The notes beneath the pieces were generated by a model, which was not told the origin of the DNA, searched no databases, and saw nothing but the letters and a program-made list of their open reading frames with translations. The translations under genes were made by a program, and so were the position numbers. From Paraburkholderia sabiae (GTDB lineage: Bacteria > Pseudomonadota > Gammaproteobacteria > Burkholderiales > Burkholderiaceae), in assembly GCF_030412785.1 (NCBI RefSeq), contig NZ_CP125295.1, forward strand, positions 1,984,001 to 2,048,000: 64,000 bases of DNA, read 5' to 3'. Below, one piece after another: positions 7,172-31,211 of this stretch (position 1 is the stretch's first letter; the number at the start of each line of letters is the position of its first letter).

Positions 7172-7204
7172 GAGTGGCCAATGAGTGGCCAATGAGTGGC
7201 AAAT
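7172..7204. repeat. Three tandem 11-bp repeats
   Basis: GAGTGGCCAAT occurs at 7172-7182 and 7183-7193 and, with one change, as GAGTGGCAAAT at 7194-7204. The array ends 27 bp before a LexA-type box. Its function is unknown; the period equals one DNA turn. Confidence 0.8.
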
Positions 7205-17267: not shown

Positions 17268-18230
17268 TCACTGCAGCGTTTCGCCCGCACCTCGCAGCAC
17301 CACGCTCTGCTTTCCGTCGATGCTGACGGGCACGTCGCCGTGCACCGTCGCGCGCCGCACGACGCGATGCGCGTCGCCGTAGTCGTTGATCGCGTAGTGC
17401 TGCGTCGCGCGGTTGTCCCAGATCGCGACGTCGCCTTGCGTCCAGTTCCAGCGCACGGTGTTTTCGAGCCGCGTGACGTGATCGTGGAAAACCTGCAGCA
17501 GATGCGCCGATTCGGTCGTCGACAATCCCTTCAGACGCTGCACGAAATGACCGAGCACGAGCGAGCGTTCGCCCGTTTCGGGATGCACGCGCACGACGGG
17601 ATGCTCGGTCTCGTAAACCGTCGACGTGAACACCTCGCGATAGCGCTTCAACTGCTCGCCGTCGGCATTGACGTGTGACGACGCGTAGTCGTACGCATTC
17701 GTGTGCAGCGCCCACAGCGTGTCGGCCAGACGCCGCAACGGCTCGGGAAGATGCGCGTAGGCGGCGGCCGTGTTGGCCCAGACCGTGTCGCCGCCATACG
17801 GCGGAATCACCACGGCGCGCAGGATCGAAATCTTCGGATAGGCATCGACGAACGTGACGTCCGTATGCCACGAGTTCGCGCGCGCGCCGTGCTGCGAATC
17901 GAGTTCGAGCAGATGACGGCTGCCGTCGACGGACGGCACGGTGGGATGCGCGACCGTCTCGCCGAAGCGCCGCGCGAAGGCTTCCTGTGCGTCGTCGTCG
18001 AGATGCTGCTGGCCACGAAAGAACAGCACCTTGTGTTCGAGCAGCGCGGCGTGGATCGCATCGAACGTCGGCGTGTCGATCGAACCGGACAGCTTGACGC
18101 CGCGAATCTCCGCGCCGATGCGTCCGGCGACGCGGCGCACGTCGAGCGAAGCAGGCGCTGCATGCGCGGCGATGGCGTTTGCGTTCGCGTTTGCGTTCGA
18201 TGAGGCGAGGGCCGTTTGCGTATTCGACAT
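17268..18230 (-). CDS. TauD/TfdA-family 2-oxoglutarate Fe(II) dioxygenase
   Basis: This 320-residue protein begins at ATG 18230 behind GGAGACGTC. The Fe-binding facial triad is His122-x-Asp124 (NSWHTDVTF) with distal His278 (RATQHYAIND). The 2-oxoglutarate arginine is likely in DAHRVVRRATV. Such enzymes hydroxylate taurine, alkylsulfates or aryloxyalkanoates and release sulfite or phenol. Residues 12-18 are a NANANAN run encoded by a short GC-rich direct repeat. No transporter is adjacent, so the substrate is undefined. Confidence 0.9.
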   Translation of the reverse strand: MSNTQTALASSNANANANAIAAHAAPASLDVRRVAGRIGAEIRGVKLSGSIDTPTFDAIHAALLEHKVLFFRGQQHLDDDAQEAFARRFGETVAHPTVPSVDGSRHLLELDSQHGARANSWHTDVTFVDAYPKISILRAVVIPPYGGDTVWANTAAAYAHLPEPLRRLADTLWALHTNAYDYASSHVNADGEQLKRYREVFTSTVYETEHPVVRVHPETGERSLVLGHFVQRLKGLSTTESAHLLQVFHDHVTRLENTVRWNWTQGDVAIWDNRATQHYAINDYGDAHRVVRRATVHGDVPVSIDGKQSVVLRGAGETLQ

Positions 18231-18449
18231 CTGACGTCTCCATGTATAGGGGAGCGTCCATTCAAGCAGCCCGCCCGCGCAAAGAGAACTGACGATTCGT
18301 GCGAACGTGTTCACGCGCGTCGCGCTATCGATAGCGGGATTCGTGCTATGGCCTGCGCATCGCGGACGCACATGCGCAAAGCGCTTTCCCGTCTCGGCGA
18401 TTGAGCCTTCGACGGGAAAGCGCGTGAGTTGAAGAAGCACACGGGTGCA

Positions 18450-18905
18450 TTACTGCGGCGCCATCTGCGCGAGCTTCAATCGCTCGCGTGAACGCGGGCT
18501 TTCGTAGATCGTGCGCGCGCCGGGCATGTACCAGGCCGAATGCAGCGTGCGGATGAACAGCGCTTCGCTTTCCGCCATATGTCCATCCGCCTGCGCGCCT
18601 TCCTCGCACAGCGCGATGATCTCGCGGCGCAGGCGCCAGTCCTTGATGTCCTGCGCGAGACTGAAGATCACGGCAGGGTCCAGCCTGCAGGTATCGCCCC
18701 AGTTCAGATAGGCCGTCGTCGTGAGGTCTTCGCACATCTGCTGCATGACGGCGAGCAACTGTGCGCGGCTGATGTTGAGGCGTTCTTCCATGCCGTAACG
18801 CTCGAGTGCTTCCAGTTCGTCGATACCCACGTGTCCGTCCGACAGCAGGCAGGCGGCCACGAGCCGCGCTGCCGCTTCGGGACTGTCGCTTCGATAGTGA
18901 CGCAT
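18450..18905 (-). CDS. TerB-like (tellurite-resistance domain) protein
   Basis: This 151-residue all-helical protein contains two acidic repeats typical of TerB-like metal-binding folds: LLSDGHVGIDELEAL and GAQADGHMAESEALFI. Family members are stress-associated and may sense Ca2+ or other metals. It lies 54 bp downstream of the DUF3563 gene on the same strand, so both could be transcribed from the box-promoter at 19248-19280. No tellurite-resistance operon is present here. Confidence 0.75.
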   Translation of the reverse strand: MRHYRSDSPEAAARLVAACLLSDGHVGIDELEALERYGMEERLNISRAQLLAVMQQMCEDLTTTAYLNWGDTCRLDPAVIFSLAQDIKDWRLRREIIALCEEGAQADGHMAESEALFIRTLHSAWYMPGARTIYESPRSRERLKLAQMAPQ

Positions 18906-18959
18906 TGCAGATCTCCTTTCCTTTGCATCGGTTCGCTTGCTTTCGTTCGACGGCGCGCG

Positions 18960-19145
18960 TTACGCGATCCAGTCGCGCGGCATCACGCTCGAATGCACGT
19001 GGAACGGATAGTCGGGCTCGTCGGTCATGCGCATGCGGCGTTCGAGATCGGCCAGATCCGTCGACGACGCGAGCCAGGCTTCGCGTTCGCTTTCGCGGGA
19101 GTGGGTGAGCAGCGTGCCAAAACGACGTGCGATTTCGCTAAACAT
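18960..19145 (-). CDS. DUF3563 family small protein
   Basis: This 61-residue protein (MFSEIARRFGTLLTHSRESE...) contains ASSTDLADLERRMRM, the signature of DUF3563, a short Burkholderiales family of unknown function. ATG 19145 is preceded by GGAGAA. It is the first gene downstream of the minus-strand regulatory box at 19263-19280. An upstream extension of the frame lacks homology. Confidence 0.8.
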   Translation of the reverse strand: MFSEIARRFGTLLTHSRESEREAWLASSTDLADLERRMRMTDEPDYPFHVHSSVMPRDWIA

Positions 19146-19247
19146 GATGTTCTCCTTCAGTAGTGCGATGAGAGGGTTGCGATGCGCGGGCTCGGTTTGA
19201 AGTGCCTTGAGTCGCCTGAGATCAGGAACGCTGCATCGACGGAATGC

Positions 19248-19280
19248 ATCGTAGGCGGGCTGAATTAGCGGGAAATGAGA
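19248..19280 (-). promoter_or_regulatory. Response-regulator-type box F with -10
   Basis: On the minus strand the site reads TCTCATT-TCCC-GCTAATT (19280 down to 19263), then 9 bp, then TACGAT (19253-19248). The layout is the same as in boxes A-E. It would drive the DUF3563 and TerB-like genes. Confidence 0.6.
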
Positions 19281-19347
19281 GCGATGCGTGCGCTGTTTTT
19301 CGTGCTGTTTTTCTTGCTGTATGTCGACGCGATACATCGCGCCAGGC

Positions 19348-19380
19348 GCTAATTCTTTGCTCACTGTCGACGCACAGAAT
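19348..19380 (+). promoter_or_regulatory. Response-regulator-type box A with -10
   Basis: GCTAATT-CTTT-GCTCACT (19348-19365), then 9 bp, then CAGAAT (19375-19380). It lies 52 bp before the secreted Pro-rich gene and is divergent from box F. Confidence 0.6.
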
Positions 19381-19432
19381 GCGAATCAACCGATGCGTCA
19401 ATGACACGGCATCGGATGTCAAGGAGAACAAC

Positions 19433-19708
19433 ATGAAAGGGATTCGCCACGTTGCAGTTGCCGCTGTGCTCGGCATGGGACTCGTGAGTGCCGCGCAGGC
19501 GCATGTGTTCGTCGGCGTCGGCATTGCGCCCGTCGTCGCACCTGTGGTGCCGCTGGTGCCTGGGGTGCCTCTGGGCCCTGTCGTGCCCGTGTATGCGCCA
19601 CCGCCGCCTGTCTACTACGCGCCGCCTGTGTATGCGCCGCCCGTCGTGGTGGGTTACTGGGGCCATCCGCATTGGGGCTATCGCGGCTATTACGGCTACT
19701 GGCGCTGA
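19433..19708 (+). CDS. Secreted Pro/Val/Tyr-rich small protein
   Basis: This 91-residue protein has a clear signal peptide (to about AQA-HVFVGV). The mature part is low complexity: VAPVVPLVPG repeats, then PPPPVYYAPPVYAPP, then aromatic Gly-rich HWGYRGYYGYWR. Similar short secreted proteins occur widely in Burkholderia and are thought to sit in the envelope, but no function is established. The start has AAGGAGAAC upstream. Box A precedes it and the lipoprotein gene follows 51 bp later. Confidence 0.75.
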   Translation: MKGIRHVAVAAVLGMGLVSAAQAHVFVGVGIAPVVAPVVPLVPGVPLGPVVPVYAPPPPVYYAPPVYAPPVVVGYWGHPHWGYRGYYGYWR

Positions 19709-19759
19709 GCGCGACATGCGCCTGATTGCCCACGAACATCATCGACGGGAGCACCCATC

Positions 19760-20029
19760 ATGAACTCGAAACACCTTGCAACGATCGCCGCCGCAGCCTG
19801 CGTACTTTCTTTCGTTTCAGGCTGCGCGGTCGCTCAGGAGGGCTACTTCCTGAGCCGTCATCCGATCATCGCCGCAGCCGACTTCGACGCGCAGCAGGCG
19901 ATCGAACAGATGCGCGCCGCGCAGCGCGCCAACGGCTACGACATGGGCGGACATGCGGGACGCGCGATCCAGTTGCTGCAGGACGCGCGCTATGAAATGC
20001 AGGCCGCCGCCACGGCGGCGACCCATTGA
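19760..20029 (+). CDS. Small putative lipoprotein
   Basis: This 89-residue protein has a signal peptide ending in a lipobox-like SFVSGC (Cys21), so it is probably lipidated. The mature part is helical and Ala/Gln-rich (FDAQQAIEQMRAAQRANGYD, then GRAIQLLQDARYEMQAAA). It lies 51 bp after the Pro-rich gene and is probably in the same transcript from box A. Its function is unknown. Confidence 0.75.
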   Translation: MNSKHLATIAAAACVLSFVSGCAVAQEGYFLSRHPIIAAADFDAQQAIEQMRAAQRANGYDMGGHAGRAIQLLQDARYEMQAAATAATH

Positions 20030-20057
20030 TGTACAGCAGGAGCGTGCCGGAACGGCC

Positions 20058-20090
20058 GCTAATTTATTGCTAATTGTCGGGCTCTACGAT
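20058..20090 (+). promoter_or_regulatory. Response-regulator-type box B with -10
   Basis: GCTAATT-TATT-GCTAATT (20058-20075) is a perfect 7-bp direct repeat at 11-bp period, followed by 9 bp and TACGAT (20085-20090). It lies 46 bp before the DUF4148 gene. Confidence 0.65.
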
Positions 20091-20136
20091 GAGCTTCATC
20101 GCAGGCTCACCTGATGAACTTCTGGAGGGAAACATC

Positions 20137-20445
20137 ATGAAAACGCTGATTCAAACCGCTGCCATCGCCATGGCACTCGCATTGCCTGTTGCTGCTTTCG
20201 CGCAATCGGACGCACCTGTCACACGCGCCGAGGTTCAGGCGCAGCTCAGGCAACTCGAAAGCGCGGGCTATAACCCGGCGGGCGACAAGGCCCACTATCC
20301 GGCGGGCATCGAAGCCGCGCAGGCACGCATCAACGCACAACACGCGGACGAATACGGCGGCGTGGCGGACGGCACGTCGCAAGCGGGCGGGGCTTTTCAT
20401 CCGCAATATGACGTCGGGATGAAGTCGATTTATGTCGGACATTGA
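20137..20445 (+). CDS. DUF4148 secreted small protein
   Basis: This 102-residue protein has a signal peptide (cleavage AFA-QSDAPV). The DUF4148 motif follows: VTRAEVQAQLRQLESAGY, then NPAGDKAHYPAGIEAAQARI. This family is abundant in Burkholderia, periplasmic, and of unknown role. The start at 20137 is behind GGAGGGA. It is preceded by the best example of the regulatory box (B), and the histidine kinase gene lies 209 bp downstream. Confidence 0.85.
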   Translation: MKTLIQTAAIAMALALPVAAFAQSDAPVTRAEVQAQLRQLESAGYNPAGDKAHYPAGIEAAQARINAQHADEYGGVADGTSQAGGAFHPQYDVGMKSIYVGH

Positions 20446-20484
20446 AGGCTGGCGGAACACCGTTATCCGCACCATCGAAACCTC

Positions 20485-20510
20485 GGGCGCGCAGAGCAAT
20501 CTGCGCGTCC
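20485..20510 (+). terminator. Hairpin between DUF4148 and kinase genes
   Basis: An 11-bp stem (20485-20495 with 20500-20510, one G-U pair) closes a GCAA tetraloop. Only a weak T-rich stretch (GGTTGTTTT) follows, so it may be a weak terminator or an mRNA-stabilising hairpin. Confidence 0.4.
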
Positions 20511-20558
20511 GTATGGTTGTTTTCACCACCAGGAGAGCTTGCCGTGCGGTGTAGAATC

Positions 20559-20594
20559 GGCTCGCCGAAAGGCTCGCCATATGGCTCGCCGAAA
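20559..20594. repeat. Three tandem 12-bp units
   Basis: GGCTCGCCGAAA, GGCTCGCCATAT and GGCTCGCCGAAA run consecutively, with degenerate units after. They lie 60 bp before the kinase start, in its probable leader. Function unknown. Confidence 0.7.
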
Positions 20595-20654
20595 GGCCCA
20601 GAAACAGGCTCGCAGGCCGCACAAAACCCTCCACGGACGGCACACATCGCAACC

Positions 20655-21983
20655 ATGTCCATGCCCAAGATCCGCTCGCTCAGAAATCAACTCGTGCTCG
20701 CCTTGTGTGTGCTGGTGAGCGTCGTCGGCGTAGTGCAGGGCATCAGCTCCTGGCAACTGGCCAAGGCGGGCATGAGCGCGCTGCTCGATCTGCGTCTCGA
20801 ACAGGCGGCGTCGCGGCTCTACAAGAGCGGGCTCGCCGAGTCGTTGCCCGCGATTCCCGCGCGCGGCTCGCAGCCGGAACGCGACATCTACCTCACGGTC
20901 TGGAAGGATGGCATCGATACGCCGTACCGCTCGACCGATCCTTCGCTCGCGCTGCCGCGCGACGCCGATTCTGGCTTCACGACGGAGAAGGTCGGCGGCG
21001 AGAACTGGCGCATCTACACGCTGCGCGAGCAATCGATGACGATTCAGGTCGCGCAGCGCTCGTCCGTGCGGCACGAACTCGCGCAAGCGCGCTCGCTGAA
21101 CACGTTGTGGCCGATGATCGTGCTGGTGCCGATGGTCTGGATCGCCGTGCTGCTCGTCGTGCGGCGCGCGCTGCGCCGTCTGACGCGCCTCGGCGCGCAG
21201 GTCAAGGCGATCGACATGACGCATTTCGAGCAGTTGTCCACCTCGGGTGTGCCGACGGAGATCCGTCCGTTCATCACGTCGATCAACACGATGATCCAGC
21301 GTCTCGAACAGTCGATCGAGAGCGAACGCAAGTTCATTTCCGACGCCGCGCATGAACTGCGCACGCCGCTCACCGCGCTGCAATTGCAGGCGGACAATCT
21401 GCAGCCGCATATCGCGCCCGGCAATCAGGAGCGCTTTCGCGAGCTGCAGAGCGGCATCCGGCGCAGCGGCCGGATGATCGCGCAGTTGCTGAAGCTCGCG
21501 CGCGCCGATGCAGCCTTGAAGGCGGACACGCTGACGCGCGTCGACGTATCGACCGTTGTCGTCGATGCCGTCGCGGAAGTGCTGCCTATTGCGATGCAGC
21601 GCGGCATCGATATCGGCGCCAACGAAATGACGAGCGCCCATGTGCGCGCGAACGAAGCCGATATCGGCATTGCGCTGCGCAACCTCGTGAGCAACGCGAT
21701 CCGCTACTCGCCCGACGGCGGCAAGGTCGATCTGAGCGTCAACGTGCGCGACGGCATGGTGTGGATGGAAGTCGTCGATACGGGGCCCGGCATCGACGAA
21801 GCGCAACTGCCACGCGTGTTCGACCGCTTCTTCCGGGCGAATACGCAGATCGAAGGCAGCGGGCTGGGGCTGTCGATCGTGCAGGCCATCGTGAACAAGT
21901 ACGGCGGCGCGGCGCATCTGCGCAATCGCACGGACGGACAGTCGGGCATCGTCGCAGCGATCGGTTTTCCGGCAGTGCCTTAA
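20655..21983 (+). CDS. Sensor histidine kinase (QseC/PmrB-like)
   Basis: This 442-residue protein starts at ATG 20655. It has TM1 at residues 11-30, a periplasmic sensor of about 120 residues, TM2 at 152-170 and a HAMP-like linker. The phospho-acceptor is His233 in SDAAHELRTPLTAL. The ATPase domain shows the N box (ALRNLVSNAIRYSP), the G1 box (VDTGPGID) and GSGLGLSIVQAI. It should phosphorylate the OmpR-type regulator encoded 223 bp downstream. Kinase-before-regulator order is the reverse of usual qseBC or pmrAB, and a terminator lies between the two genes. The frame is open upstream, but that part is repeat-derived and non-homologous. Confidence 0.93.
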   Translation: MSMPKIRSLRNQLVLALCVLVSVVGVVQGISSWQLAKAGMSALLDLRLEQAASRLYKSGLAESLPAIPARGSQPERDIYLTVWKDGIDTPYRSTDPSLALPRDADSGFTTEKVGGENWRIYTLREQSMTIQVAQRSSVRHELAQARSLNTLWPMIVLVPMVWIAVLLVVRRALRRLTRLGAQVKAIDMTHFEQLSTSGVPTEIRPFITSINTMIQRLEQSIESERKFISDAAHELRTPLTALQLQADNLQPHIAPGNQERFRELQSGIRRSGRMIAQLLKLARADAALKADTLTRVDVSTVVVDAVAEVLPIAMQRGIDIGANEMTSAHVRANEADIGIALRNLVSNAIRYSPDGGKVDLSVNVRDGMVWMEVVDTGPGIDEAQLPRVFDRFFRANTQIEGSGLGLSIVQAIVNKYGGAAHLRNRTDGQSGIVAAIGFPAVP

Positions 21984-22002
21984 AACGGGAGCAGGCCAGA
22001 AC

Positions 22003-22035
22003 GCTCATTCTTCGCTAAGTCTGCGCGCCTAGCAT
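22003..22035 (+). promoter_or_regulatory. Response-regulator-type box C with -10
   Basis: GCTCATT-CTTC-GCTAAGT (22003-22020), then 9 bp, then TAGCAT (22030-22035). It would start a transcript at about 22042 that meets a strong terminator at 22129, ahead of the response-regulator gene. Confidence 0.6.
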
Positions 22036-22041
22036 AAGAAC

Positions 22042-22129
22042 TGTTGGAGCAGGCCCCTCTGGTTCTGGCACGGCGATCGGTGCACGCCAGAATCCTTCGG
22101 CCGACTGCGCAAGCGGTCGGCCTTTTTTT
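22042..22129 (+). ncRNA. Candidate small RNA or attenuated leader
   Basis: The predicted transcript of about 88 nt runs from box C's start point to the T run of a strong terminator. Beyond the terminator there are 77 bp to the regulator gene. No convincing ORF with a ribosome site lies inside. It could be a free sRNA or a leader that limits read-through into the regulator gene. The 5' end is inferred from -10 spacing only. Confidence 0.45.
22099..22129 (+). terminator. Strong rho-independent terminator
   Basis: A 10-bp stem GGCCGACTGC/GCGGTCGGCC (one G-U pair) with a GCAA tetraloop is followed by seven T residues. It lies between the kinase and regulator genes. Confidence 0.85.
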
Positions 22130-22206
22130 CGTCTTCATGTTGCGCGTCGTGAGCTTCGCCCACTCGGTTATCATGCGATCTGGCTGGTGCGCGAGGAAAC
22201 GACATC

Positions 22207-22881
22207 ATGCGAGTGCTACTGGTTGAAGACGATCTGCAGATTGGCCAAAGTCTGATGCGCGCGCTGCAGGACGCGGACTACAGCGTCGACTGGGTACGCG
22301 ACGGCAACGCAGGCAGCGCGGCCATCGCTGCCGCCGAATACACGGTCGTGCTGCTCGATCTCGGCTTGCCCGGCATGGGCGGCATCGAATTGCTGAAGAC
22401 GGCGCGCGGCGCGGGCAATACGGTGCCCGTGCTGATCCTCACGGCACGCGACGATCTCGAAGCCCGCGTGCAAGGCCTCGACGTCGGCGCCGACGATTAC
22501 GTGCTCAAACCCTTCGACGTCCCCGAACTGATGGCGCGCATGCGCGCCGTGCTGCGCCGCAAGGCGGGGTACGCGTCGTCGCGTCTCGGCGACGATGCGC
22601 TGAACCTTGATCTCGACAAGCGCACGCTGTGCTGCAACGGCGTGTCGTCGGTGCTGTCGGCGCGCGAGTTCGCGCTGATGCTCGCGTTTCTCGAGCGGCC
22701 CGGCACGATCCTGTCGCGCGATCAGCTCGAAGACAAACTGTACGGCTGGGGCAAGGAAGTCGAGAGCAATGCCGTCGACGTGCTCATTCATTCCGTACGC
22801 AAGAAATTCGGGCAAGCCGTGATCCGCAACGTGCGCGGTCTCGGCTGGACTGTGATGCTCGGCGATACGCCCAAAACCTGA
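22207..22881 (+). CDS. OmpR/PmrA-family response regulator (QseB-like)
   Basis: This 224-residue protein has receiver domain 1-120 with acidic pocket Glu7/Asp8, phospho-acceptor Asp51 (VLLDLGLPGMGG), Thr79 and Lys101 (YVLKPFD). A winged-helix DNA-binding domain follows (LSAREFALMLAFLE; VESNAVDVLIHSVRKKFG; RGLGWTVML). The close PmrA/QseB-type sequence fits binding to 7-bp direct repeats spaced by 11 bp, which are found at six sites in this window. Its partner should be the kinase at 20655. Box D lies 10 bp after its stop. Confidence 0.93.
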   Translation: MRVLLVEDDLQIGQSLMRALQDADYSVDWVRDGNAGSAAIAAAEYTVVLLDLGLPGMGGIELLKTARGAGNTVPVLILTARDDLEARVQGLDVGADDYVLKPFDVPELMARMRAVLRRKAGYASSRLGDDALNLDLDKRTLCCNGVSSVLSAREFALMLAFLERPGTILSRDQLEDKLYGWGKEVESNAVDVLIHSVRKKFGQAVIRNVRGLGWTVMLGDTPKT

Positions 22882-22890
22882 GCGCATCGC

Positions 22891-22923
22891 GCTCATTGTC
22901 CGCTCACTCTCTGTCGACACAAT
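22891..22923 (+). promoter_or_regulatory. Response-regulator-type box D with -10
   Basis: GCTCATT-GTCC-GCTCACT (22891-22908), then 9 bp, then CACAAT (22918-22923). It lies 51 bp before the 84-residue gene. Confidence 0.6.
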
Positions 22924-22974
22924 CTTCTCGTCCGCACAGCAATCACGCTGTGCGCGCAGAGCGAGGAGAACGCG

Positions 22975-23229
22975 ATGAGAGGGATTCCAGACGTTCGTGT
23001 CGTTGTCGAACGCAACGACGCACAAGCGGCTTTCGATATGTTCGATCCGTGCACGCGCACTCGGATTACCTTGCATATCGACGGCAGAATGCAAAGCGCG
23101 GGCTCACGTGCGCCGGTGTACTCCAAGCGTGCTTATCGCATGCGGCCGTCGACGTGCGGCATCGGGTTATGCGTGCGTTATCCGCGCTGTGCCGGCTGGA
23201 GCGATGGCTTCGGTTCGACGCAACAGTGA
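22975..23229 (+). CDS. Small hypothetical protein
   Basis: This 84-residue protein has no signal peptide. The first half may form a small beta/alpha unit (IPDVRVVVERNDAQAAFDMF); the tail has three Cys (CGIGLCVRYPRCAGW). The ribosome site GAGGAGAA precedes ATG. It is the first gene behind box D and lies 9 bp before the alpha/beta-hydrolase gene, so the two are probably co-transcribed. The family is unrecognised. Confidence 0.6.
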   Translation: MRGIPDVRVVVERNDAQAAFDMFDPCTRTRITLHIDGRMQSAGSRAPVYSKRAYRMRPSTCGIGLCVRYPRCAGWSDGFGSTQQ

Positions 23230-23238
23230 GGCGCGGCC

Positions 23239-24231
23239 ATGTCGAACCATTCCACTATCGAAGGCGCGAACGATCGCATGTCGGCAAGCTGGCAGGCGCG
23301 CATCGCCGTCGGCGCGCTGCCATTCTTCGCCGGGCATCGCCGGTCCGCGTGCGTTGCCGCGGTGCCCGATGTCGCGCAAGTGCGTGCACGCGCGGAGCGG
23401 CTGTCGCTGCCGGGTGCGTGGCTCGCCGCGCTGCTCAATCCGCGCTCGCGCCGAACGCGCGACGCCGATCTCGACGGCCTGTGGACCTGGCCTTCGCCGC
23501 GAAACGGTCCGATCGCGAACGCAATTCTGTATCTGCATGGCGGCGGCTATTACTTCGGCTCGTCGTCGACGCATCGCGCGGTGACGACGGCGCTCGCCTG
23601 TCATAGCGGCGCACCCGTGTTCGCGCCGGATTACCGGCTCGCGCCCGAGCATCCGTTTCCCGCCGCGCTCGAAGACGCGTTGCACGCCTACCGGACGATG
23701 ATCGCGCGCGGCATCGCGGCGGATTCGATCGTCGTCGCGGGCGATTCGGCGGGCGGCGGGCTTGCGCTTGCGATGCTGCTCGCGCTGCGCGATGCGGGTG
23801 AAACGCTGCCTGCGGGCGCGGTGCTGTTCTCGCCGTGGGCCGATCTGACGACGACCTGGCGCGCCGCGCGCGGCACCGGACCGGCGACACGGCTCGCGAT
23901 GCAGCGCGCCGCGCGCATGTACATCGACGATGCGAGTGCGTGGGATCCGTACGTGTCGCCTGCGCGCGGCGAGTTGCACGATCTGCCGCCCATCCACATC
24001 CAGATCAGCGACAGCGAGCCGATGTACGAGGACGTTCGCGCGCTGGCGGCGCGTCTCGATCGCGCGCGCGTGACGGTGCAAGTCGCGCAATGGCACGCGA
24101 TGCCGCACGCGCTGGCGTGCTTCGCGCCGTTTCTGCCCGAAGCGAATCAGACGCTGCGGCAGGCGGCGATGTTCGTGCGGCGCTGTTATGCGACACGCAA
24201 GCGTCACGCGGCGGCGGTTGCAATTGCATGA
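23239..24231 (+). CDS. Alpha/beta hydrolase (HSL/family IV esterase)
   Basis: This 330-residue protein has the oxyanion-hole motif LHGGGYYFGS (about 99-108) and nucleophile Ser170 in AGDSAGGG. The likely acid is around Asp258 (QISDSEPMYED), and the catalytic His is probably in AMPHALACF (His290). It fits the hormone-sensitive-lipase branch of carboxylesterases, with no signal peptide. It is probably in the operon driven by box D. The natural ester is unknown. Confidence 0.88.
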   Translation: MSNHSTIEGANDRMSASWQARIAVGALPFFAGHRRSACVAAVPDVAQVRARAERLSLPGAWLAALLNPRSRRTRDADLDGLWTWPSPRNGPIANAILYLHGGGYYFGSSSTHRAVTTALACHSGAPVFAPDYRLAPEHPFPAALEDALHAYRTMIARGIAADSIVVAGDSAGGGLALAMLLALRDAGETLPAGAVLFSPWADLTTTWRAARGTGPATRLAMQRAARMYIDDASAWDPYVSPARGELHDLPPIHIQISDSEPMYEDVRALAARLDRARVTVQVAQWHAMPHALACFAPFLPEANQTLRQAAMFVRRCYATRKRHAAAVAIA

Positions 24232-24263
24232 CCCAGCGCTGACGGCCGACCTCTGGGAACGTG

Positions 24264-25508
24264 TCATGCACGCGCAGGTTCGGCGCTCGCGTGAACGGTG
24301 TCGTCGATCGGGAAGTGCAGCAGAGCGGCGAACAGTCCGGCGAGCGCCGTCGCCGCCCAGATCGGCGTGTACGAGCCCGTCGCGTCGAACACATAGCCGC
24401 CGAGCCATGCGCCCAGAAACGAGCCCAGCTGATGGCTGAGAAACACCACGCCGAACAGCGTGCCGAGATGCCGCGTGCCGAACACCTTGGCGATCAGGCC
24501 GCTCGTGAGCGGCACGGTGCCGAGCCACGTCAGGCCCATCACGGCGGCGAACAGCACGACCGACTCCGTCGACTTCGGCAGCAGGAAGAAGGCGGCAATC
24601 GTCGCGCCGCGTATCAGATACAGCCAGCCGAGCACATGCTGCTGACGGAAGCGCCCGCCGAGCCAGCCGCACGCCCAGCTGCCCGCCATGTTGAAGAGGC
24701 CGATCAGCGCGAGCGCGGTGGCGCCGAGTCCCATCGGCATGTGGCACAGCGTCAGATAGCCGGGCAGGTGCGTCGCGATGAACGCAAGCTGGAAGCCGCA
24801 GGTGAAGAAGCCGAGCGTCAGCAGCCGGTAGCCGCGATGCTGCGTCGCGTACGCGAGCGTTTCGCGCAGCGATGCAGTCACGGGCGATGCGGCTGCTTGC
24901 GGTGCGGACGTGTCGTGACGGCGGTCGAGCAGGATGCCGAACGGCGCTGCGACGAGCATCAGGAACGCGAGCGCGAACAGCGAAGTCGAAACGCCCGACG
25001 TTTCGCGCACCACTTGCGCGAACGGTACCAGAAGCACCTGTCCGAGCGAGCCGCCCGCGCTCGCGATGCCCATCGCCATGCTGCGCTGCGCGGGCGTCGC
25101 GACGCGTCCAACGGCTGTCAGCACGACGCCGAAGGTCGTGCAGCTCACGCCGATGCCGACCAGCAGCCCGAGGCCGGCGATCAGCGCGATACCGGACGGC
25201 GCGCTTGCCGCGAGCGCGAGGCCTGCCGCGAATGTGGTCGCGCCGAACGCGACGACGGGCGCGGCGCCGTAGCGGTCGGCGGCCGCGCCCGCGAACGGCT
25301 GCGCGAAGCCCCACACGAGATTGTGCAGCGCGATGGCAAACGCGACCAGCGTGACGGGCAGGCCGCGATCGTATGAAAACGGTCCGATGAACAGGCCGAA
25401 GGTCTGACGGATGCCCATGGCCGCGCTCAGGATCAGCGCGGCGGCGACGATCACGTAGAGCGTCGGGTTCTTCAGGGGTGCTGCGTAAGCGGATCGGGTC
25501 GTCGACAT
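24264..25508 (-). CDS. MFS transporter (12 TM)
   Basis: This 414-residue protein begins MSTTRSAYAAPLKNPTLYVI. TM1 contains ALILSAAMGIRQTFGLF, typical of monocarboxylate/oxalate-type MFS proteins (YbfB/OxlT relatives), and about twelve hydrophobic helices can be counted. The frame continues upstream of ATG 25508 without homology. The LysR gene lies 82 bp upstream on the same strand, so it may regulate this transporter. The substrate is unknown. Confidence 0.88.
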   Translation of the reverse strand: MSTTRSAYAAPLKNPTLYVIVAAALILSAAMGIRQTFGLFIGPFSYDRGLPVTLVAFAIALHNLVWGFAQPFAGAAADRYGAAPVVAFGATTFAAGLALAASAPSGIALIAGLGLLVGIGVSCTTFGVVLTAVGRVATPAQRSMAMGIASAGGSLGQVLLVPFAQVVRETSGVSTSLFALAFLMLVAAPFGILLDRRHDTSAPQAAASPVTASLRETLAYATQHRGYRLLTLGFFTCGFQLAFIATHLPGYLTLCHMPMGLGATALALIGLFNMAGSWACGWLGGRFRQQHVLGWLYLIRGATIAAFFLLPKSTESVVLFAAVMGLTWLGTVPLTSGLIAKVFGTRHLGTLFGVVFLSHQLGSFLGAWLGGYVFDATGSYTPIWAATALAGLFAALLHFPIDDTVHASAEPARA

Positions 25509-25590
25509 GTTTCGTTTCCTCCTTGCCGAATCGTCGCAATAGCGGGGCGGCCGGACAAACGAAAAGATTTCGGCGACAGGTGAAGAAAAT

Positions 25591-26529
25591 TCACTCGTGA
25601 GCGGGAAGGGCTTCGTGCCGTGTGACGTCTTCGAACGCGAGCGCTTCGTGCAGCAGCCAGCGTCTGAACGCCTGCAACTCGGGCCGCTCGTCTGCGCCAT
25701 CCGTGCCTTCTGCGCCGACGAGCCAGTACGAGGTTTTCGCATCGACGCTCAGCGCGCTCGCTTCGACGAGTGTGCCCGCATCGAGTTCGCGGTCGACGAG
25801 CGGTCGTCTGCCGATGGCGACGCCCATGCCCGTCGTCGCCGCTTCGAGCGCGAGCTGGATCGTGTCGAAGCGCAGGCCGCCCGTTGCGTCGAGATCGCCG
25901 ATGCCCGCGCCGTCGAGCCACGCCTGCCAGTCGTCGCTGGCGGTATCGACGTGAATCAGCGCCGCGCGCCGCAAGTCGACGTTGCCATGCGCGTCGAGCA
26001 AGGTCTCGCGATACGCGGGGCTGCACACGGGTACGAGCTTCTCGCCGAACAGCCGGTTCCAGTCGCTGCCGGGCACGGGGCCGCGACTCAGACGGATGCC
26101 GAAATCGAAGCCGTCGATGGGAAAGCCGACCTGGCGGCGCGACGTATCGACGGATACGTCGATGTTCGGCCAGCGCGCGCGAAAGTCGTGCAGGCGCGGC
26201 ACGAGCCAGCGCACGGCGAGCGTCGGTGCGCAGCTCACGGAGATCGTCCGATGCGTGCGGCCATCGGGCAGCCGCTGCGTGCCGAGCAGAATCAGCGAGA
26301 ACGCTTCGGCGATGTACGGGAAATACAGTTCGCCCGCGGGCGTCAGCGACAGCTTGCGCGGCTCGCGTGTGAACAGCGCGACACCGAGCGTCTCTTCGAG
26401 CGCGACGATGCCGTGACTCACCGCGCTCGGCGTGACGTTGAGTTCGGCGGCGGCGAGCTTGAAACTGCCGAGCCGCGCGGCTGCCTCGAAGAAACGCAGC
26501 GAGTTCAGCGGAGGCAGGCGAGCGGGCAT
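25591..26529 (-). CDS. LysR-family regulator (GcvA-like)
   Basis: This 312-residue protein starts with MPARLPPLNSLRFFEAAARL, followed by SFKLAAAELNVTPSAVSHGI, the GcvA-type helix-turn-helix, and a substrate-binding-like effector domain to the end. The usual target is an adjacent gene, here the MFS transporter 82 bp downstream in the same orientation. It is preceded by the FmdB-like gene. An upstream ATG would add 81 low-quality residues and is rejected. Confidence 0.9.
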   Translation of the reverse strand: MPARLPPLNSLRFFEAAARLGSFKLAAAELNVTPSAVSHGIVALEETLGVALFTREPRKLSLTPAGELYFPYIAEAFSLILLGTQRLPDGRTHRTISVSCAPTLAVRWLVPRLHDFRARWPNIDVSVDTSRRQVGFPIDGFDFGIRLSRGPVPGSDWNRLFGEKLVPVCSPAYRETLLDAHGNVDLRRAALIHVDTASDDWQAWLDGAGIGDLDATGGLRFDTIQLALEAATTGMGVAIGRRPLVDRELDAGTLVEASALSVDAKTSYWLVGAEGTDGADERPELQAFRRWLLHEALAFEDVTRHEALPAHE

Positions 26530-26575
26530 GGTGCGGACTTCGGGCGTGAGTAAGCGATGGAAGTGGTGCGCGCGC

Positions 26576-26812
26576 TCATGGACAGCACGAACAGCCACGA
26601 TGCCGCATGCCGTATCCGCCTTCGCTGTCGGAAGCGCCACTGGATCCACTACCTGAAGCTGAAGCGCCGCCGAGCAACGCAGGCGCGCCGACCCGCACGC
26701 GTTCCGCGGACGTGCCGCAGCGAGGACAGGCGGCGGGCTCGTCGCGTTCGGCGATGCGCCGCACGGTTTCAAACGCGCCGCAGTCGGCGCACTCGTAGTC
26801 GTACACAGGCAT
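26576..26812 (-). CDS. FmdB-family zinc-ribbon protein
   Basis: This 78-residue protein starts MPVYDYECADCGAFETV and has a second Cys pair at CPRCG, forming one zinc ribbon. A Gly/Ser-rich tail ending in a Cys pair (GCSCCP) follows. FmdB-type proteins are named from a putative formamidase regulator, but their real role is unclear. It lies 46 bp upstream of the LysR start and 37 bp downstream of the HNH gene, all on one strand. Confidence 0.82.
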   Translation of the reverse strand: MPVYDYECADCGAFETVRRIAERDEPAACPRCGTSAERVRVGAPALLGGASASGSGSSGASDSEGGYGMRHRGCSCCP

Positions 26813-26849
26813 AACTTGTTCCGTCGTTATCGCACGATGCGATCGGGTG

Positions 26850-27170
26850 TCAGCGCTTGCGCCGGCTGCTGCGCGTGCGTTCATGAAACCCGACCGGCTT
26901 CGTGCGTACCCAGTTCACGAAAGCTCTGACTTGCTCATTGTCGAGGAGACGATCGACCGAGGCATACGTCGTCGCCAGCTCGCGCTCGGAAAACAGCGCG
27001 TGCAACTGCCGATGACAGATCCGGTGCAGCGCGACCGTTTCACGGCCGCCTTCCGCTTTCGGAATCAGGTGATGCTCGTCGCGCTGGTCGGGTGGAATCG
27101 CGCGGCCGCACAGCGGACAGACTTCATCCTGCGGCGGCCGATACCACGATTCCACTTCGCGCTTTGCCAT
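26850..27170 (-). CDS. HNH endonuclease-domain protein
   Basis: This 106-residue protein has CPLCGR (zinc pair), then DEHHLIPKAEGG (the HNH core with tandem His), then ALHRICHRQLHALF. Together these match a compact HNH nuclease with a zinc knuckle. ATG 27170 is behind AGGAG. Such small HNH proteins may be DNA nucleases of unknown role. It is first of a minus-strand row (HNH, FmdB, LysR, MFS) and divergent from the SLATT gene. Confidence 0.82.
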   Translation of the reverse strand: MAKREVESWYRPPQDEVCPLCGRAIPPDQRDEHHLIPKAEGGRETVALHRICHRQLHALFSERELATTYASVDRLLDNEQVRAFVNWVRTKPVGFHERTRSSRRKR

Positions 27171-27361
27171 CGATGCTCCTGCGATTCCATCATCCTACCA
27201 ATTTTCGCCGCGGATTCCGGCGCGGTTCGCCACGTTAGCCAATCGGCCAGGACTTTGCGCATCGGCCGTTCCCGATGCCCTTTGGCCTATTACTTACGCT
27301 GCCCGTTAGCGTCACGCCGCGATGCTATGCTGGCCACTTCCCGTCGACGAAAGGCAATGGC

Positions 27362-27937
27362 ATGACGATGGTCGATCCGCATGCGCAGGCGCGCGCCGAT
27401 GACACTCCGGAAGCACACAGCGAATACAGGCCGCCCGTCACTGAAAACGAGCTGCTGCTGAAGTGGATCCGCCGCGCGCGCGAATCGCAGAAGAGCCATT
27501 ACGACATGGCCGATCTGCTCGCCGCGCGCAACCGCGGGTTCGGCATCGGCGTGACGGCGCTGTCCGCGGTGGTCGGCACGACGGTGTTTCTGTCGCTGGT
27601 AGTATCGGCGGATTCGGCTTTGGGGCGGCTCGTGGTCGGCCTGGTGAGCATTGCGGCGGCTGTGTCGGCGGCGTTGCAGACGTTTCTGCGCTATGCGGAG
27701 CGCGCCGAAGCGCATCGCGCGGCTGGGGCACGCTATGGCGCGGTGCGGCGTCGGCTGGAAGCGATCTATGCGGGCGATCCGGGCGCTCGCGACGGACGCT
27801 ATATCAGCGAAGTGCGCGAGATTCTCGACCGTCTCGCGGAAGATTCGCCGAGCGTGCCGCCGCGCATGTTCCAGCGCACGCAGGAGACGTTGCGCGTCGC
27901 GGCGCTGCAAGGCCGCGACGGAAACCGCTGGGAATGA
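27362..27937 (+). CDS. SLATT-domain two-TM protein
   Basis: This 191-residue protein starts at ATG 27362; a second ATG lies two codons later. A cytoplasmic helix (ENELLLKWIRRARESQKSHY) precedes two adjacent TM helices (GIGVTALSAVVGTTVFLSLVV and LVVGLVSIAAAVSAALQTFL). A long amphipathic C-terminal helix region follows (ERAEAHRAAGARYGAVRRRLEAIY). This is the layout of SLATT proteins, predicted pore-forming effectors of nucleotide-signalled conflict systems. No SMODS nucleotidyltransferase or SLOG partner is adjacent, so its role here is open. Confidence 0.7.
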   Translation: MTMVDPHAQARADDTPEAHSEYRPPVTENELLLKWIRRARESQKSHYDMADLLAARNRGFGIGVTALSAVVGTTVFLSLVVSADSALGRLVVGLVSIAAAVSAALQTFLRYAERAEAHRAAGARYGAVRRRLEAIYAGDPGARDGRYISEVREILDRLAEDSPSVPPRMFQRTQETLRVAALQGRDGNRWE

Positions 27938-27971
27938 AGCACGTTTGATGGCGTGACAGTGCTGCCGATGC

Positions 27972-28922
27972 TCAGGCTCTAAGCTGTGCGCCGGACGCGT
28001 CGCCGCGTGCGGCGACGTGCGGCATCGGCGACGGAAGCCCGGACGGTTCGGCTGCATTGGCGAACTGGCGACAGACCTCTGCGGCACTGCCGCACGCGTG
28101 CAGCCGCTCGCGGAAATGCTGGTCGCAAAACCGCTGCGCGACATCGGCGAGCAGATTCAGGTGCATCGTGTTCGCGCCTTCGGGCACGAAGAGCGCAATG
28201 ACGTCGGTGACAGGCTTCGCGTCGGGCGCGTCGAAATCGAGCGGGACGCGCGGGCGCACATAGAGAACCACCGCGTTGAACAGGCCCGCAATCTGGCTAT
28301 GCGGAACGGCGACGCCTTGTCCCAGACCCGTCGAGCCGAGCGCCTCGCGCGTGTTCAGCCCTTCGATCACCTGAGCAGCCGGCACGCCATAGCGACGTTC
28401 GCAAAACGTGCCGAGCTGCGCGAAGAGTGCATCGCGATCCACGATGTCCGCGTCGAGCAGCACGTTGTCGGCGCTCAGCAGACGGTCGAGCGTGTCTGTC
28501 TCGTCGTCGCTGGTCTTGACGGAAGTTTTCGCGGGCCGCAACGCGCTCGCGGCCTGCGCCCACGACGTGGCGCGCAGCAGATCGCGCCAGCCGTCCGTCG
28601 GTGTATCGGGAATCTCGAACAGATGACCGAACTGCGCGGCAGGCGCGATACGCGTCACCTGCTGGATCGCGCCGTTCACGGCGTCTTTCGGCAGATACAG
28701 CGACAGCTGCACGCGATCGGTATGCGGCAGCGTCGCGATGCGGATGGTCCACGGCTGGCCCGCGCAATCGCGGGTGAGCGCGCGGCGCAATGGCGTGACG
28801 TGCTGCGCGTCGAGCGTCACGCGCATCATCACGCTGCGGCTCGCCGCGTGAGCCCGCGTGGCCGGTGCGTGATGTTGATGGATGCCGAAAATGGCGCGCA
28901 GAATCGCTCGAGTCTTCGTCAT
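27972..28922 (-). CDS. EIIA-Ntr-like PTS domain protein with N-terminal extension
   Basis: This 316-residue protein starts at ATG 28922 behind GGAGAAAGGGC. Residues 30-105 form an ACT-like alpha/beta region. Residues 145-295 are a PTS EIIA type-2 domain with the phospho-accepting His208 in GVAVPHSQI and the preceding NTREALGSTGLGQG. EIIA-Ntr proteins relay phosphate from NPr and regulate K+ transport, PHB and nitrogen functions. Neither rpoN nor ptsO is adjacent. The duplex architecture (about twice PtsN length) points to a regulatory paralogue. Confidence 0.8.
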   Translation of the reverse strand: MTKTRAILRAIFGIHQHHAPATRAHAASRSVMMRVTLDAQHVTPLRRALTRDCAGQPWTIRIATLPHTDRVQLSLYLPKDAVNGAIQQVTRIAPAAQFGHLFEIPDTPTDGWRDLLRATSWAQAASALRPAKTSVKTSDDETDTLDRLLSADNVLLDADIVDRDALFAQLGTFCERRYGVPAAQVIEGLNTREALGSTGLGQGVAVPHSQIAGLFNAVVLYVRPRVPLDFDAPDAKPVTDVIALFVPEGANTMHLNLLADVAQRFCDQHFRERLHACGSAAEVCRQFANAAEPSGLPSPMPHVAARGDASGAQLRA

Positions 28923-28994
28923 GCCCTTTCTCCAGACTGACATTAGGACTAGCGTAGCGCGATTCGCATTAAAACCGAATAAAAAAGCACTTTC

Positions 28995-29015
28995 GCCGAA
29001 TGTGGGCTGTCGCAC
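28995..29015. repeat. Copy 2 of an interspersed 21-bp element
   Basis: GCCGAATGTG-GGCT-GTCGCAC is 17/21 identical, with equal spacing, to 14617-14637. It lies in the divergent spacer between the EIIA-like and GST genes. Confidence 0.45.
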
Positions 29016-29131
29016 GCGGCACGACGCGGGAAAGGTGTTAAAGAACGCATGCTGCAGCGCCGCGTTCGCGCGCTGAAGGACACCCGTTGAAGGACATCGA
29101 CACGATTCGCTCATCGCAGGAGACTCCGTTC

Positions 29132-29824
29132 ATGCTGACGCTCTACTCGTACCCCGATCTGTTCGGCGTCGCCGACAACAACGCGTTCGGTCTGAAGGTC
29201 TACGCGTTCATGCGGCTGTGCGGGCTCGATTTCGAGCACCGGCATATTCTCGACACGTCGCACGCGCCGCGCGGCCAGTTGCCGTATCTGTCCGACGACG
29301 GCGAAACGGTCGGCGACAGCGACGCGATCATCGCGTATCTGAAGAACAAGTACGATCTGCGGATCGACGGCGCGCTGTCGCAAGGGCAACTGAATCTCGA
29401 CTTTCTGGTGCGCCGCACACTCGACGATCTCTACTGGCCGATGAGCTATTCGCGCTGGCGCGACGAACGCTATTGGCCGGCGTTTCGCGATGCCGTGCTG
29501 CGCGAGCACACGGACGTCACCACGAGCGATCTCGAAGGCGCGCGCGAGTACAACCGGCAGCGCTATCACTATCAGGGCATCGGACGTTACGAGCCGGACC
29601 AGGTGTACGCGCGCGGGATCGGCGATCTGCGCGTCGTTGCCGATCTGCTCGGCGACAGCGGCTTCGTGTTCGGCCCGGAACCGGCGACCATCGATGCCGC
29701 CATCTACGGCTTTGTCGCGAACATTTACTTCTACGAGATCGACACGCCGCTGAAGGCGTTCGTGTTGTCGCGGCCCGAACTGGTCCGCCATTGCCTCGCG
29801 GTGCACGAGCGGATCGCGGCTTGA
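29132..29824 (+). CDS. Glutathione S-transferase-fold protein (metaxin-like N-domain)
   Basis: This 230-residue protein starts at ATG 29132 behind CAGGAGA (an earlier TTG at 29087 is less likely). The N-terminal thioredoxin-like domain (MLTLYSYPDLFGVADNNAFG ... RGQLPYLSDDGETVGDSDAI) includes the SD pair that binds the gamma-glutamyl part. An all-helical C-terminal domain follows, ending in ATIDAAIYGFVANIYF. The active-site Cys/Ser position is atypical, as in metaxin-related GSTs. Substrate unknown. Confidence 0.82.
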   Translation: MLTLYSYPDLFGVADNNAFGLKVYAFMRLCGLDFEHRHILDTSHAPRGQLPYLSDDGETVGDSDAIIAYLKNKYDLRIDGALSQGQLNLDFLVRRTLDDLYWPMSYSRWRDERYWPAFRDAVLREHTDVTTSDLEGAREYNRQRYHYQGIGRYEPDQVYARGIGDLRVVADLLGDSGFVFGPEPATIDAAIYGFVANIYFYEIDTPLKAFVLSRPELVRHCLAVHERIAA

Positions 29825-29982
29825 GAAAGACGGTGCAAGGAACTCCCGCGCGGCATTGGCTGTCATCGGATAGGATCGCCTTTCGCACGTAAGGCGATTG
29901 ACGCACCGCTTTCGACATCACCTGCGGAAAAAACGCGGGCATCACCAGCGAACTCGATAACGAATCAAGCAAGGGAGAAACA

Positions 29983-30579
29983 ATGACAATGTACCGCCGC
30001 CGATTCATCGCGATGACCACGGCCACGCTCGCCTCGGGCGGGCTGGCGCTTGCAGGCTGCACGACGACGGGGCCGTCGTCGGATGCGTCGCCCGAAGCGA
30101 ACGCGGGCAAGCGCCAGTCGATCGACGCCGACGTCAACGCGACGCTCACGCGCCTCTTCAACGCGATCGGCGGTTCGCGCGAACTCGCCGACAAGGCGCG
30201 CGGCATTCTCGTGTTTCCGTCGGTGATCTCGGCGGGCTTCTGGTTCGGCGGACAGTACGGGCAGGGCGCATTGCGCGTCGGCGGGCAGACGTCGGGCTAT
30301 TACAGCATCACGGCGGCGTCGTTCGGCTTGCAGATCGGCGCGCAGTCGAAGGCGATCATCATGCTGTTCATGACGGACGAAGCGCTCAGCAGCTTCACGC
30401 GCAGCCAGGGCTGGTCGGCGGGCGTCGATGCGACGGTGGCGCTCGTGAAGGTCGGCGCGAACGGCAACGTCGACACGTCGACGGCAATGAGTCCCGTCGA
30501 AGCGTTCGTGCTGACGAACGGCGGGCTGATGGCGGGCGTGTCGCTGGAAGGCTCGAAGATTTCCCGTCTGATCATCTGA
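29983..30579 (+). CDS. SYLF/YSC84-domain lipoprotein
   Basis: This 198-residue protein has an Arg-rich signal (MTMYRRRFIAMTTATLASGG) ending in lipobox LALAGC, so it is probably lipidated. The SYLF lipid-binding domain follows: ADKARGILVFPSVISAGFWF, GYYSITAASFGLQIGAQSKA, and AFVLTNGGLMAGVSLEGSKI. The domain binds phosphoinositides in eukaryotes; bacterial relatives are envelope proteins of unclear function. It immediately precedes box E and the universal stress gene. Confidence 0.85.
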   Translation: MTMYRRRFIAMTTATLASGGLALAGCTTTGPSSDASPEANAGKRQSIDADVNATLTRLFNAIGGSRELADKARGILVFPSVISAGFWFGGQYGQGALRVGGQTSGYYSITAASFGLQIGAQSKAIIMLFMTDEALSSFTRSQGWSAGVDATVALVKVGANGNVDTSTAMSPVEAFVLTNGGLMAGVSLEGSKISRLII

Positions 30580-30598
30580 TTCCAGCGCAATAAAGCTT

Positions 30599-30631
30599 GC
30601 TCATTTGCCGCTAAGTCTCGCGTCGCATCAT
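30599..30631 (+). promoter_or_regulatory. Response-regulator-type box E with -10
   Basis: GCTCATT-TGCC-GCTAAGT (30599-30616), then 9 bp, then CATCAT (30626-30631). It lies 38 bp before the universal stress gene and about 8 kb from the two-component genes. Confidence 0.6.
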
Positions 30632-30669
30632 GCACTGCATGACATGACGCAACGACGGAGGCACTCGAA

Positions 30670-31197
30670 ATGATCAAGCACATTCTGGTCGCGGTTGGCG
30701 CACACAGGGACGACTCGGTACTCAAGACGGCCATCGACAAGGCGCGCCAAACGGGCGCACGGCTCACTGCCGTGTATGTCGTCGACACGATGCCCTGGTG
30801 GGCGCTGGCAGGCGTCGAATACGGCTGTCTCGACACGCTGCAGATGGTCGAGGAACTCGAACGCACGGTGGAGCGCCGCTGCAACGAGACCTTCGAACTC
30901 GACGCGTGGGACATCGATACGCGTGCGATGACGGTTGCGCTGAAAGGCGGCGTGGGCCGCACGATCGCGCGCATCGCCGACGAACTCGACGCGGATCTGG
31001 TCGTCGTCGGCGCGGGACGCGGTCCGAAGTGGCGCTTCTGGGAAGAGCGGATGAGCGATGTGATCGCGCGTTGCACGCGGCGCTCGGTGCTGATCGCGAC
31101 GTCGACGGTTGCACGTGAAGACAAGGCGGCAAGCGGCGACGCGCATCGCCACGCGCAAGGCCGCACGGGCGCGTCGGTTCACGCGCCGACGCTTTAA
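30670..31197 (+). CDS. Universal stress protein (UspA family)
   Basis: This 175-residue protein has a Rossmann-like UspA fold: MIKHILVAVGAHRDDSVLKT at the start, then ADLVVVGAGRGPKWRFWEER, RRSVLIATS, and a His/Ala-rich tail. The ATP-binding GxxGx9G pattern is imperfect (VVGAGRG with a changed spacing). USPs bind ATP and support survival under stress. ATG 30670 follows GGAGGC. It is preceded by box E, suggesting control by the two-component system at 20.7-22.9 kb. Confidence 0.88.
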   Translation: MIKHILVAVGAHRDDSVLKTAIDKARQTGARLTAVYVVDTMPWWALAGVEYGCLDTLQMVEELERTVERRCNETFELDAWDIDTRAMTVALKGGVGRTIARIADELDADLVVVGAGRGPKWRFWEERMSDVIARCTRRSVLIATSTVAREDKAASGDAHRHAQGRTGASVHAPTL

Positions 31198-31211
31198 ACC
31201 CGCTCCAAACC

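Follow-up and report, generated by a model that had tools for sequence, protein, structure and literature searches.

Here we report on the window, a 64,000-nucleotide stretch of the Paraburkholderia sabiae genome (assembly GCF_030412785.1, contig NZ_CP125295.1, positions 1,984,001 to 2,048,000 of the forward strand), and on a two-component system encoded in it, composed of a histidine kinase (20655..21983, plus strand) and an OmpR-family response regulator (22207..22881, plus strand). The sequence comparisons described below indicate that this kinase-regulator pair very probably activates six local and about four distal promoters, including that of a putative small RNA (sRNA), by means of a shared promoter box. 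The box is 33 bp long and has a 7-4-7-9-6 layout, i.e. two 7-mers with an 11-bp period, followed by 9 bp and a -10-like hexamer. Both manual reading of the sequence and a script found six such boxes, labelled A to F, exactly where an earlier sequence-only reading of this DNA had placed them, with the 11-bp repeat period, the 9-bp spacing and the quoted hexamers all present. The repeat consensus GCTMATT proposed in the same reading fits five of the first repeats, but the first repeat of the only box on the minus strand reads TCTCATT. If the -10 hexamer is taken as positions -12 to -7, the repeats span approximately -39 to -22 and thus cover the -35 position.

The boxes, their spacing and their genes

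A chance origin of the boxes was rejected on the basis of several counts. In the window, the pattern GCTMATTN4GCTMATT with up to two mismatches yields 7 matches against 0.70 expected, a number reached by none of the 100 shuffles. The complete 33-bp layout has five exact matches in the 9.9-Mb genome, every one of them local. A matrix constructed from the six window boxes only identified 141 matches with at least 16 bits in 37 loci around orthologous regulators (taken from 36 other genomes, one of which, G107, supplied two loci), against 0 in the reversed sequences. The spacing was analyzed in the same 37 loci with boxes chosen by the 14 repeat positions alone, the -10 hexamer being left unused. 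This selection gave 152 matches (9 in reversed sequence), or 95 once the near-identical ones had been removed; NANNAT is found at the 9-bp spacing in 74 of these 95 non-redundant boxes and in 0 to 3 of them at any one of the other spacings between 3 and 19. The claim that the fixed spacing makes chance unlikely is therefore fully upheld. A side result of the repeat-only pattern is a seventh repeat pair in the window (ACTCATTN4ACTCATT, 7180-7197, minus strand), which lacks the -10 layout and falls below 11 bits once the -10 is scored. In one genome (G011) the same two boxes recur with a constant offset at both ends of contig C3 (542-1288 and 3212967-3213713), probably because the assembly of a circular replicon overlaps itself; the list of matches contains them twice, while the genome counts are unaffected.

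The sequence-only reading had suggested a genome-wide scan for the layout as a check. In such a scan the exact 33-bp form is confined to the five local sites, and with up to three mismatches there are 45 matches versus 29 for the reversed pattern; the weak distant matches are therefore mostly noise. The shorter pattern GCTMANTN4GCTMANT has 9 exact matches in the genome, 5 of them local, and its reversed counterpart has 5. By number the four distant exact 18-bp matches are at chance level, although C1:3137388 among them is a conserved promoter.

Among homologs of the target genes, counted wherever the start of the homolog falls in a fetched locus, the box is largely retained, and the box-to-start distances are mostly near-constant. 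Box F (19248..19280, minus strand, TCTCATTtcccGCTAATT-9-TACGAT) is the putative promoter of a gene encoding a 61-aa DUF3563 protein (18960..19145, minus strand; Pfam PF12086), 25 of whose 26 homologs are preceded by a box. It possibly serves also the gene of a 151-aa TerB-like protein (18450..18905, minus strand; PF05099 with 19.9 bits, under the 24.4 cut-off), which follows 54 bp behind the DUF3563 stop codon and is presumably co-transcribed. Box A (19348..19380, plus strand, -10 CAGAAT) is located 52 bp ahead of the start of sp91 (19433..19708, plus strand), a small protein that has no Pfam match and whose start resembles a signal peptide by our own reading rather than by a prediction tool; 18/19 of its homologs are boxed. 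Box B (20058..20090, plus strand, -10 TACGAT), the putative promoter of a gene for a 102-aa DUF4148 protein (20137..20445, plus strand; PF13663), is retained in 16/16 homologs. Box D (22891..22923, plus strand, -10 CACAAT) is the putative promoter of orf84 (22975..23229, plus strand; no Pfam match), whose homologs have their starts in nine loci and are all boxed (9/9) at a distance of 49-50 bp. It probably drives also the alpha/beta-hydrolase gene behind orf84 (23239..24231, plus strand; an esterase nearest to the hormone-sensitive-lipase models); 1/10 esterase homologs has a box of its own. Box E (30599..30631, plus strand, -10 CATCAT) lies 38 bp ahead of the start of a universal stress protein (Usp; 30670..31197, plus strand; PF00582), with boxes in 11/15 homologs. 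Unrelated neighbour genes in the fetched loci were found to be unboxed (Ysc84 0/12, sp89 0/5).

Four weaker distal matches in this genome (1-2 mismatches) lead genes that have boxed homologs in other species. Three of these genes encode an AMP-binding ligase, a glycine-zipper lipoprotein and a DUF6622 membrane protein, and the fourth is a 59-aa open reading frame (ORF) followed by an alpha/beta-hydrolase; the homology was judged by eye on the translations rather than by alignment. A strictly local regulon was rejected on account of these four promoters. The proposal of a local regulon of the two-component system thus appears sound as far as the two-component system is concerned, being consistent with the co-occurrence of box and regulator and with the rigid spacing, but the regulon would extend to distal promoters, and one of the six boxes (box C) would lead a small RNA. 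A fifth distal match, with two mismatches, is located at C1:6062798.

The neighbouring regulator as candidate reader of the boxes

The regulator exhibits the features of the OmpR/PhoB family, with the domains PF00072 and PF00486 above the cut-offs and a phospho-acceptor, Asp51, assigned by position. The kinase comprises the HisKA and HATPase_c domains, with the phospho-acceptor His233 assigned by motif and a start codon of our choice. We searched for the regulator in 144 genomes of the genus and defined a close ortholog by 77-100% identity and E below 1e-105, a cut chosen after viewing the list, which gave 37 genomes. The exact 33-bp box is found in 32/37 genomes with a close ortholog and in 4/107 without one, and its reversed pattern in 0/144. 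The neighbouring OmpR-family regulator is the likely reader of the boxes because of this co-occurrence and the rigid spacing to the -10 hexamer. At the level of loci, boxes occur in all 37 around the 77-100% orthologs, in 17/20 around relatives of 62-68% identity (15/16 in genomes that lack a close ortholog) and in 7/8 around relatives of 67-74% identity. Each of the 23 named loci around kinase relatives, several of which are the same contigs as our numbered genomes, contains at least one box, with 1 match in total in the reversed sequences; among the named kinase-relative loci, the Pseudomonas outlier (L093) has no box. The named kinase relatives come from Paraburkholderia, Caballeronia and strains labelled Burkholderia sp., and regulator relatives with E 1e-80 or better are found in 7 of the 25 sampled genera of the family.

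Several observations weigh against assigning the boxes to this regulator. The Fisher value for the co-occurrence (2e-22) ignores relatedness and overstates independence, and the ortholog cut was set post hoc. The box is missing from 4/15 Usp homologs, and five genomes with an ortholog have only near-matches to the exact box. Conversely, four genomes possess the exact box and no close ortholog. Two of them, G035 and G112, hold relatives with 58% and 62% identity, respectively. G074 has three boxes with at least 20 bits (L145 3057, 4662, 2957), its best regulator match having E 1.3e-68, and G130 has two exact boxes (L155 3022, L156 3025) and no regulator match at E 1e-60; in these two genomes the boxes may have a different reader, or the assembly may lack the regulator. 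Paralogs with similar boxes coexist in several genomes, and 7/8 genomes with the 67-74% relatives also hold a close ortholog, therefore the readers may overlap. As a separate observation, some of the boxes in G074 and G130 precede genes that are boxed elsewhere too.

Boxes in genomes without a close ortholog could be expected if the main reader were a paralogous OmpR-family regulator, e.g. the 52% identical QseB-like protein, with the neighbouring regulator as a bystander, and some regulator match at E 1e-60 is indeed found in 141/144 genomes, very often with 52% identity among the matches listed. We regard this explanation as highly improbable, since the exact box is absent in 103/107 genomes without a close ortholog, a box accompanies the 52% relative in 2/20 loci (being absent from 18/20) versus 37/37 around the orthologs, and the predicted recognition helices of the neighbouring regulator and the QseB-like relative differ (SNAVDVLIHSVRKKFG vs SNTVEVYIHALRKKLG). 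Another explanation, which we find quite unlikely, if a little less so, is that the boxes are operators for repression, with the regulator covering the -35 region and blocking the polymerase. The overlap of the box with the -35 position agrees with it; placement alone does not tell activation from repression. Two considerations argue weakly for activation instead: there are 0 consensus sigma-70 promoters in 18900-24300 (shuffles give only 0.9), so an activator may be needed, and the phasing by one helical turn resembles architecture I of PhoP-activated promoters (PMC3335776).

We thus favour activation by the neighbouring regulator, which could proceed as follows. The kinase would phosphorylate the regulator at Asp51; a head-to-tail regulator dimer would bind the tandem GCTMATT repeats over the -35 position; and the bound regulator would bring RNA polymerase to the -10 hexamer, which lies 9 bp further downstream, in a manner similar to PhoP architecture I. 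The local regulon would consist of the DUF3563-TerB-like unit, sp91, DUF4148, the sRNA, the orf84-esterase unit and Usp, and the distal one of about four units (AMP-binding ligase, glycine-zipper lipoprotein, DUF6622 protein, and the 59-aa ORF with its alpha/beta-hydrolase). Box C would yield a terminated sRNA of ~90 nt, the regulator gene being probably transcribed from its own promoter.

A putative small RNA between kinase and regulator

The gap that separates the kinase stop (21983) from the regulator start (22207) contains box C (22003..22035, plus strand, -10 TAGCAT) and an intrinsic terminator (22099..22129, plus strand) with a 10-pair stem and seven T, which ends 77 bp ahead of the regulator start. 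Box C appears to lead a terminated small RNA of ~90 nt (22042..22129, plus strand; the 5' end follows from the position of the -10) rather than simply the regulator gene. The only clear Rfam match in 18000-32000 is ncS54 (RF02871) at 22051-22129, which covers the full length of the model (1-79). The segment displays the hallmarks of a bacterial sRNA gene, namely a putative promoter of its own, a conserved structure, an intrinsic terminator and no conserved ORF: complete ORFs of at least 8 codons occur in 0, 0 and 4 of 19 RNA sequences in the three frames.

The gap RNA segment is present in 18/144 genomes, including this one. A search of all 144 genomes with a covariance model returned the 18 kinase-regulator gap copies as the top matches, and as the 19th (69.5 bits) a copy of G063 that is located in this gap too but is degraded. 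All 18 gap copies have a box just upstream (21.8-32.8 bits), whereas the related RNAs encoded elsewhere are unboxed in 15/15 cases (11 in the genus, maximum 11.2 bits; 4 in this genome, maximum 7.0 bits). The degraded copy of G063 has no box (2.1 bits), and in four genomes that have lost the gap RNA or hold it in decayed or no form (G070, G123, G063, G059) no box with at least 12 bits is found in the gap. Conservation among 17 gap sequences amounts to 0.80-0.96 in the RNA, 0.66-0.76 in the block of the box and 0.27-0.58 just outside, with 0.47-0.58 directly past the RNA. For the analysis of structure, 19 distinct RNA sequences were chosen by an exact core pattern, with identical copies and the decayed copies of G063 and G123 excluded and L103 trimmed. 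The constancy of CCCCTCTGRTTCTGGC, the 5' arm of stem 1 included, is for this reason partly a matter of construction; the covariance-model search, to which no core-pattern filter was applied, likewise yielded the 18 gap copies and that of G063. The paired cells hold in 98.9% of cases, versus 22-47% when the structure is slid along the sequences. Two-sided changes are seen in three pairs, which all belong to the terminator stem, and the changes in stem 1 are one-sided only.

Other results weaken the case for the sRNA. The ncS54 match scores 35.1 bits (genome-wide E 1.1e-5) and thus stays below the gathering cut-off of 43 bits. The folding energy is modest (z-score -2.05), and further pair types are no more frequent than in shuffles (137/500). 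A terminator scan reported 3 sites in 5.4 kb versus 3.8 in shuffles, therefore the weight of the terminator comes from its conservation and not from the scan. Moreover, two genomes (G010 and G143) have a gap box (24.0 bits) and do not have this RNA. In both the gap between kinase and regulator is long, and the box lies ~405 bp ahead of the regulator (L111 of G010, 16627, minus strand; L112 of G143, 8577, plus strand).

These two genomes would also be in line with a different function of box C, i.e. autoregulation, in which it drives the regulator gene and the hairpins constitute an attenuator in a long leader; box C does precede the regulator gene in the same orientation, and read-through of the terminator is conceivable. 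We consider such an arrangement unlikely, and a role of box C as a simple promoter of the regulator was accordingly given less weight. The terminator stops well short of the regulator start, the conservation drops directly after the RNA segment, and the gap RNA is similar to RNAs encoded elsewhere in the genus. In addition, where kinase and regulator are split, a separate conserved element, TCRGYTATBAT, precedes the regulator by no more than 260 bp (TCGGTTATCAT at 22164..22174, plus strand, in this genome), as a candidate for a separate promoter element. It is present in 28/36 loci and absent from six loci in which regulators of 77-80% identity closely follow the kinase, and from L111 and L112. 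The regulator gene probably has a promoter of its own.

As regards the origin of the sRNA assigned to box C, the ncS54 family is multi-copy in the genus, with 1-11 matches per genome and matches over the cut-off in 143/144 genomes, and this genome has a separate copy with 83 bits. We give even chances to a scenario in which the two-component system captured a diverged sRNA of this family and placed it under the regulator's own box; the captured sRNA would have a conserved unpaired GGCCCCUCU and be devoid of the usual GGCCCTCGGAA loop, and would have been lost or decayed together with the box in some lineages. If true, it would provide a post-transcriptional arm of the system, possibly through a feedback that acts on the regulator or envelope mRNAs. 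Seed matches of the sRNA at start codons in three genomes showed no enrichment (7 vs 7 in the reversed control), and a plasmid search with the sRNA gave no match.

Relation to known systems and possible role

The sequence-only reading assigned the regulator to the PmrA/QseB family. Among curated models PmrA (NF007928) is indeed the closest and QseB (NF007663) the second, but the scores remain below both cut-offs (211.7 bits vs 330 and 205.5 bits vs 345, respectively). The system resembles PmrA/BasR (PmrAB) in its OmpR-family regulator, whose nearest solved structures are 8jo2 and 4s04. In Klebsiella, the PmrA site consists of head-to-tail hexamers separated by 5 bp, CTTAAT/CCTAAG (PMC3973317); the geometry is the same as here, with CTMATT in place of CTTAAT. 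The differences are the GCTMATTN4GCTMATT box, the score of the regulator and the other target genes. The kinase is nearest to QseC among NCBIfam models (220.1 bits), which together with the QseB score recalls QseB/QseC; however, the equivalog cut-off of 475 is far from reached, and a separate 52% QseB-like relative is widespread in the genus, mostly at loci without a box.

The box placement resembles class-II activation. In Salmonella, PhoP architecture I is described as a direct-repeat box 12 nt from the -10, counted from the hexamer repeat (PMC3335776); the likeness lies in a single direct-repeat box whose distance from the -10 is fixed at about one turn of the helix, while the spacing here is 9 bp, counted from the 7-mer, and the box sequence is different. 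An sRNA beside a two-component system and under its control is already known from glmY-qseEGF: in Proteus mirabilis, the GlmY gene adjoins qseEGF and is controlled by the regulator of the system (PMC8745638), as we suppose for the present RNA. GlmY precedes the kinase gene, whereas the present RNA would lie between the genes for the kinase and an OmpR-type regulator; the parallel is drawn from gene arrangement and control. ncS54 was found in biofilms of Burkholderia cenocepacia, with a reported 3.1-fold increase in biofilm (PMC5688073). The gap RNA has the same plan of one stem and a terminator; it differs from ncS54 in its score below the cut-off and in having no GGCCCTCGGAA loop, which the main genomic copy does possess. 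In Cupriavidus metallidurans, the AgrR/PrsQ system (PMC7380067) has a response regulator that likewise activates a gene for a small predicted periplasmic protein (PrsQ2), but its box is an inverted repeat of ATTACA (6-4-6), unlike the direct repeats here. AgrR, GluR (PMC9452761) and IrlR2 (PMC13037405) were all set apart from the present system by the partial descriptions in these sources and not by sequence comparison; a literature search for PrsR2 gave no lead.

No description of the box, the regulon or the gap RNA was found in the literature searched (titles and openings of abstracts, with few subscription papers covered), nor any paper on DUF3563. The two-component system would thereby gain a binding code, a list of targets and a small RNA. 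The code makes DUF3563, DUF4148, DUF6622 and sp91, small proteins of unknown function, testable as a single regulon. The loci of diverged relatives add boxed genes for HdeA and a zinc-ribbon protein. HdeA-like genes with related boxes are located near regulator relatives at L165, L167, L168, L169, L171, L172 and L248, with HdeA confirmed by Pfam at L167 and L248 only and recognized by eye at the other loci. HdeA is an acid-chaperone family, and these boxes therefore suggest acid as the condition to try first; we infer an envelope- or acid-stress role and a corresponding inducing signal. At diverged-relative loci we also read a TerC-like membrane protein, the fragment of which had no match when submitted to Pfam. 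Finally, in the window, beyond the Usp gene, two adjoining genes on the minus strand (31212-34037 and 34052-35908) encode Hsp70-like (DnaK-type) proteins, as read from the ORF translations.

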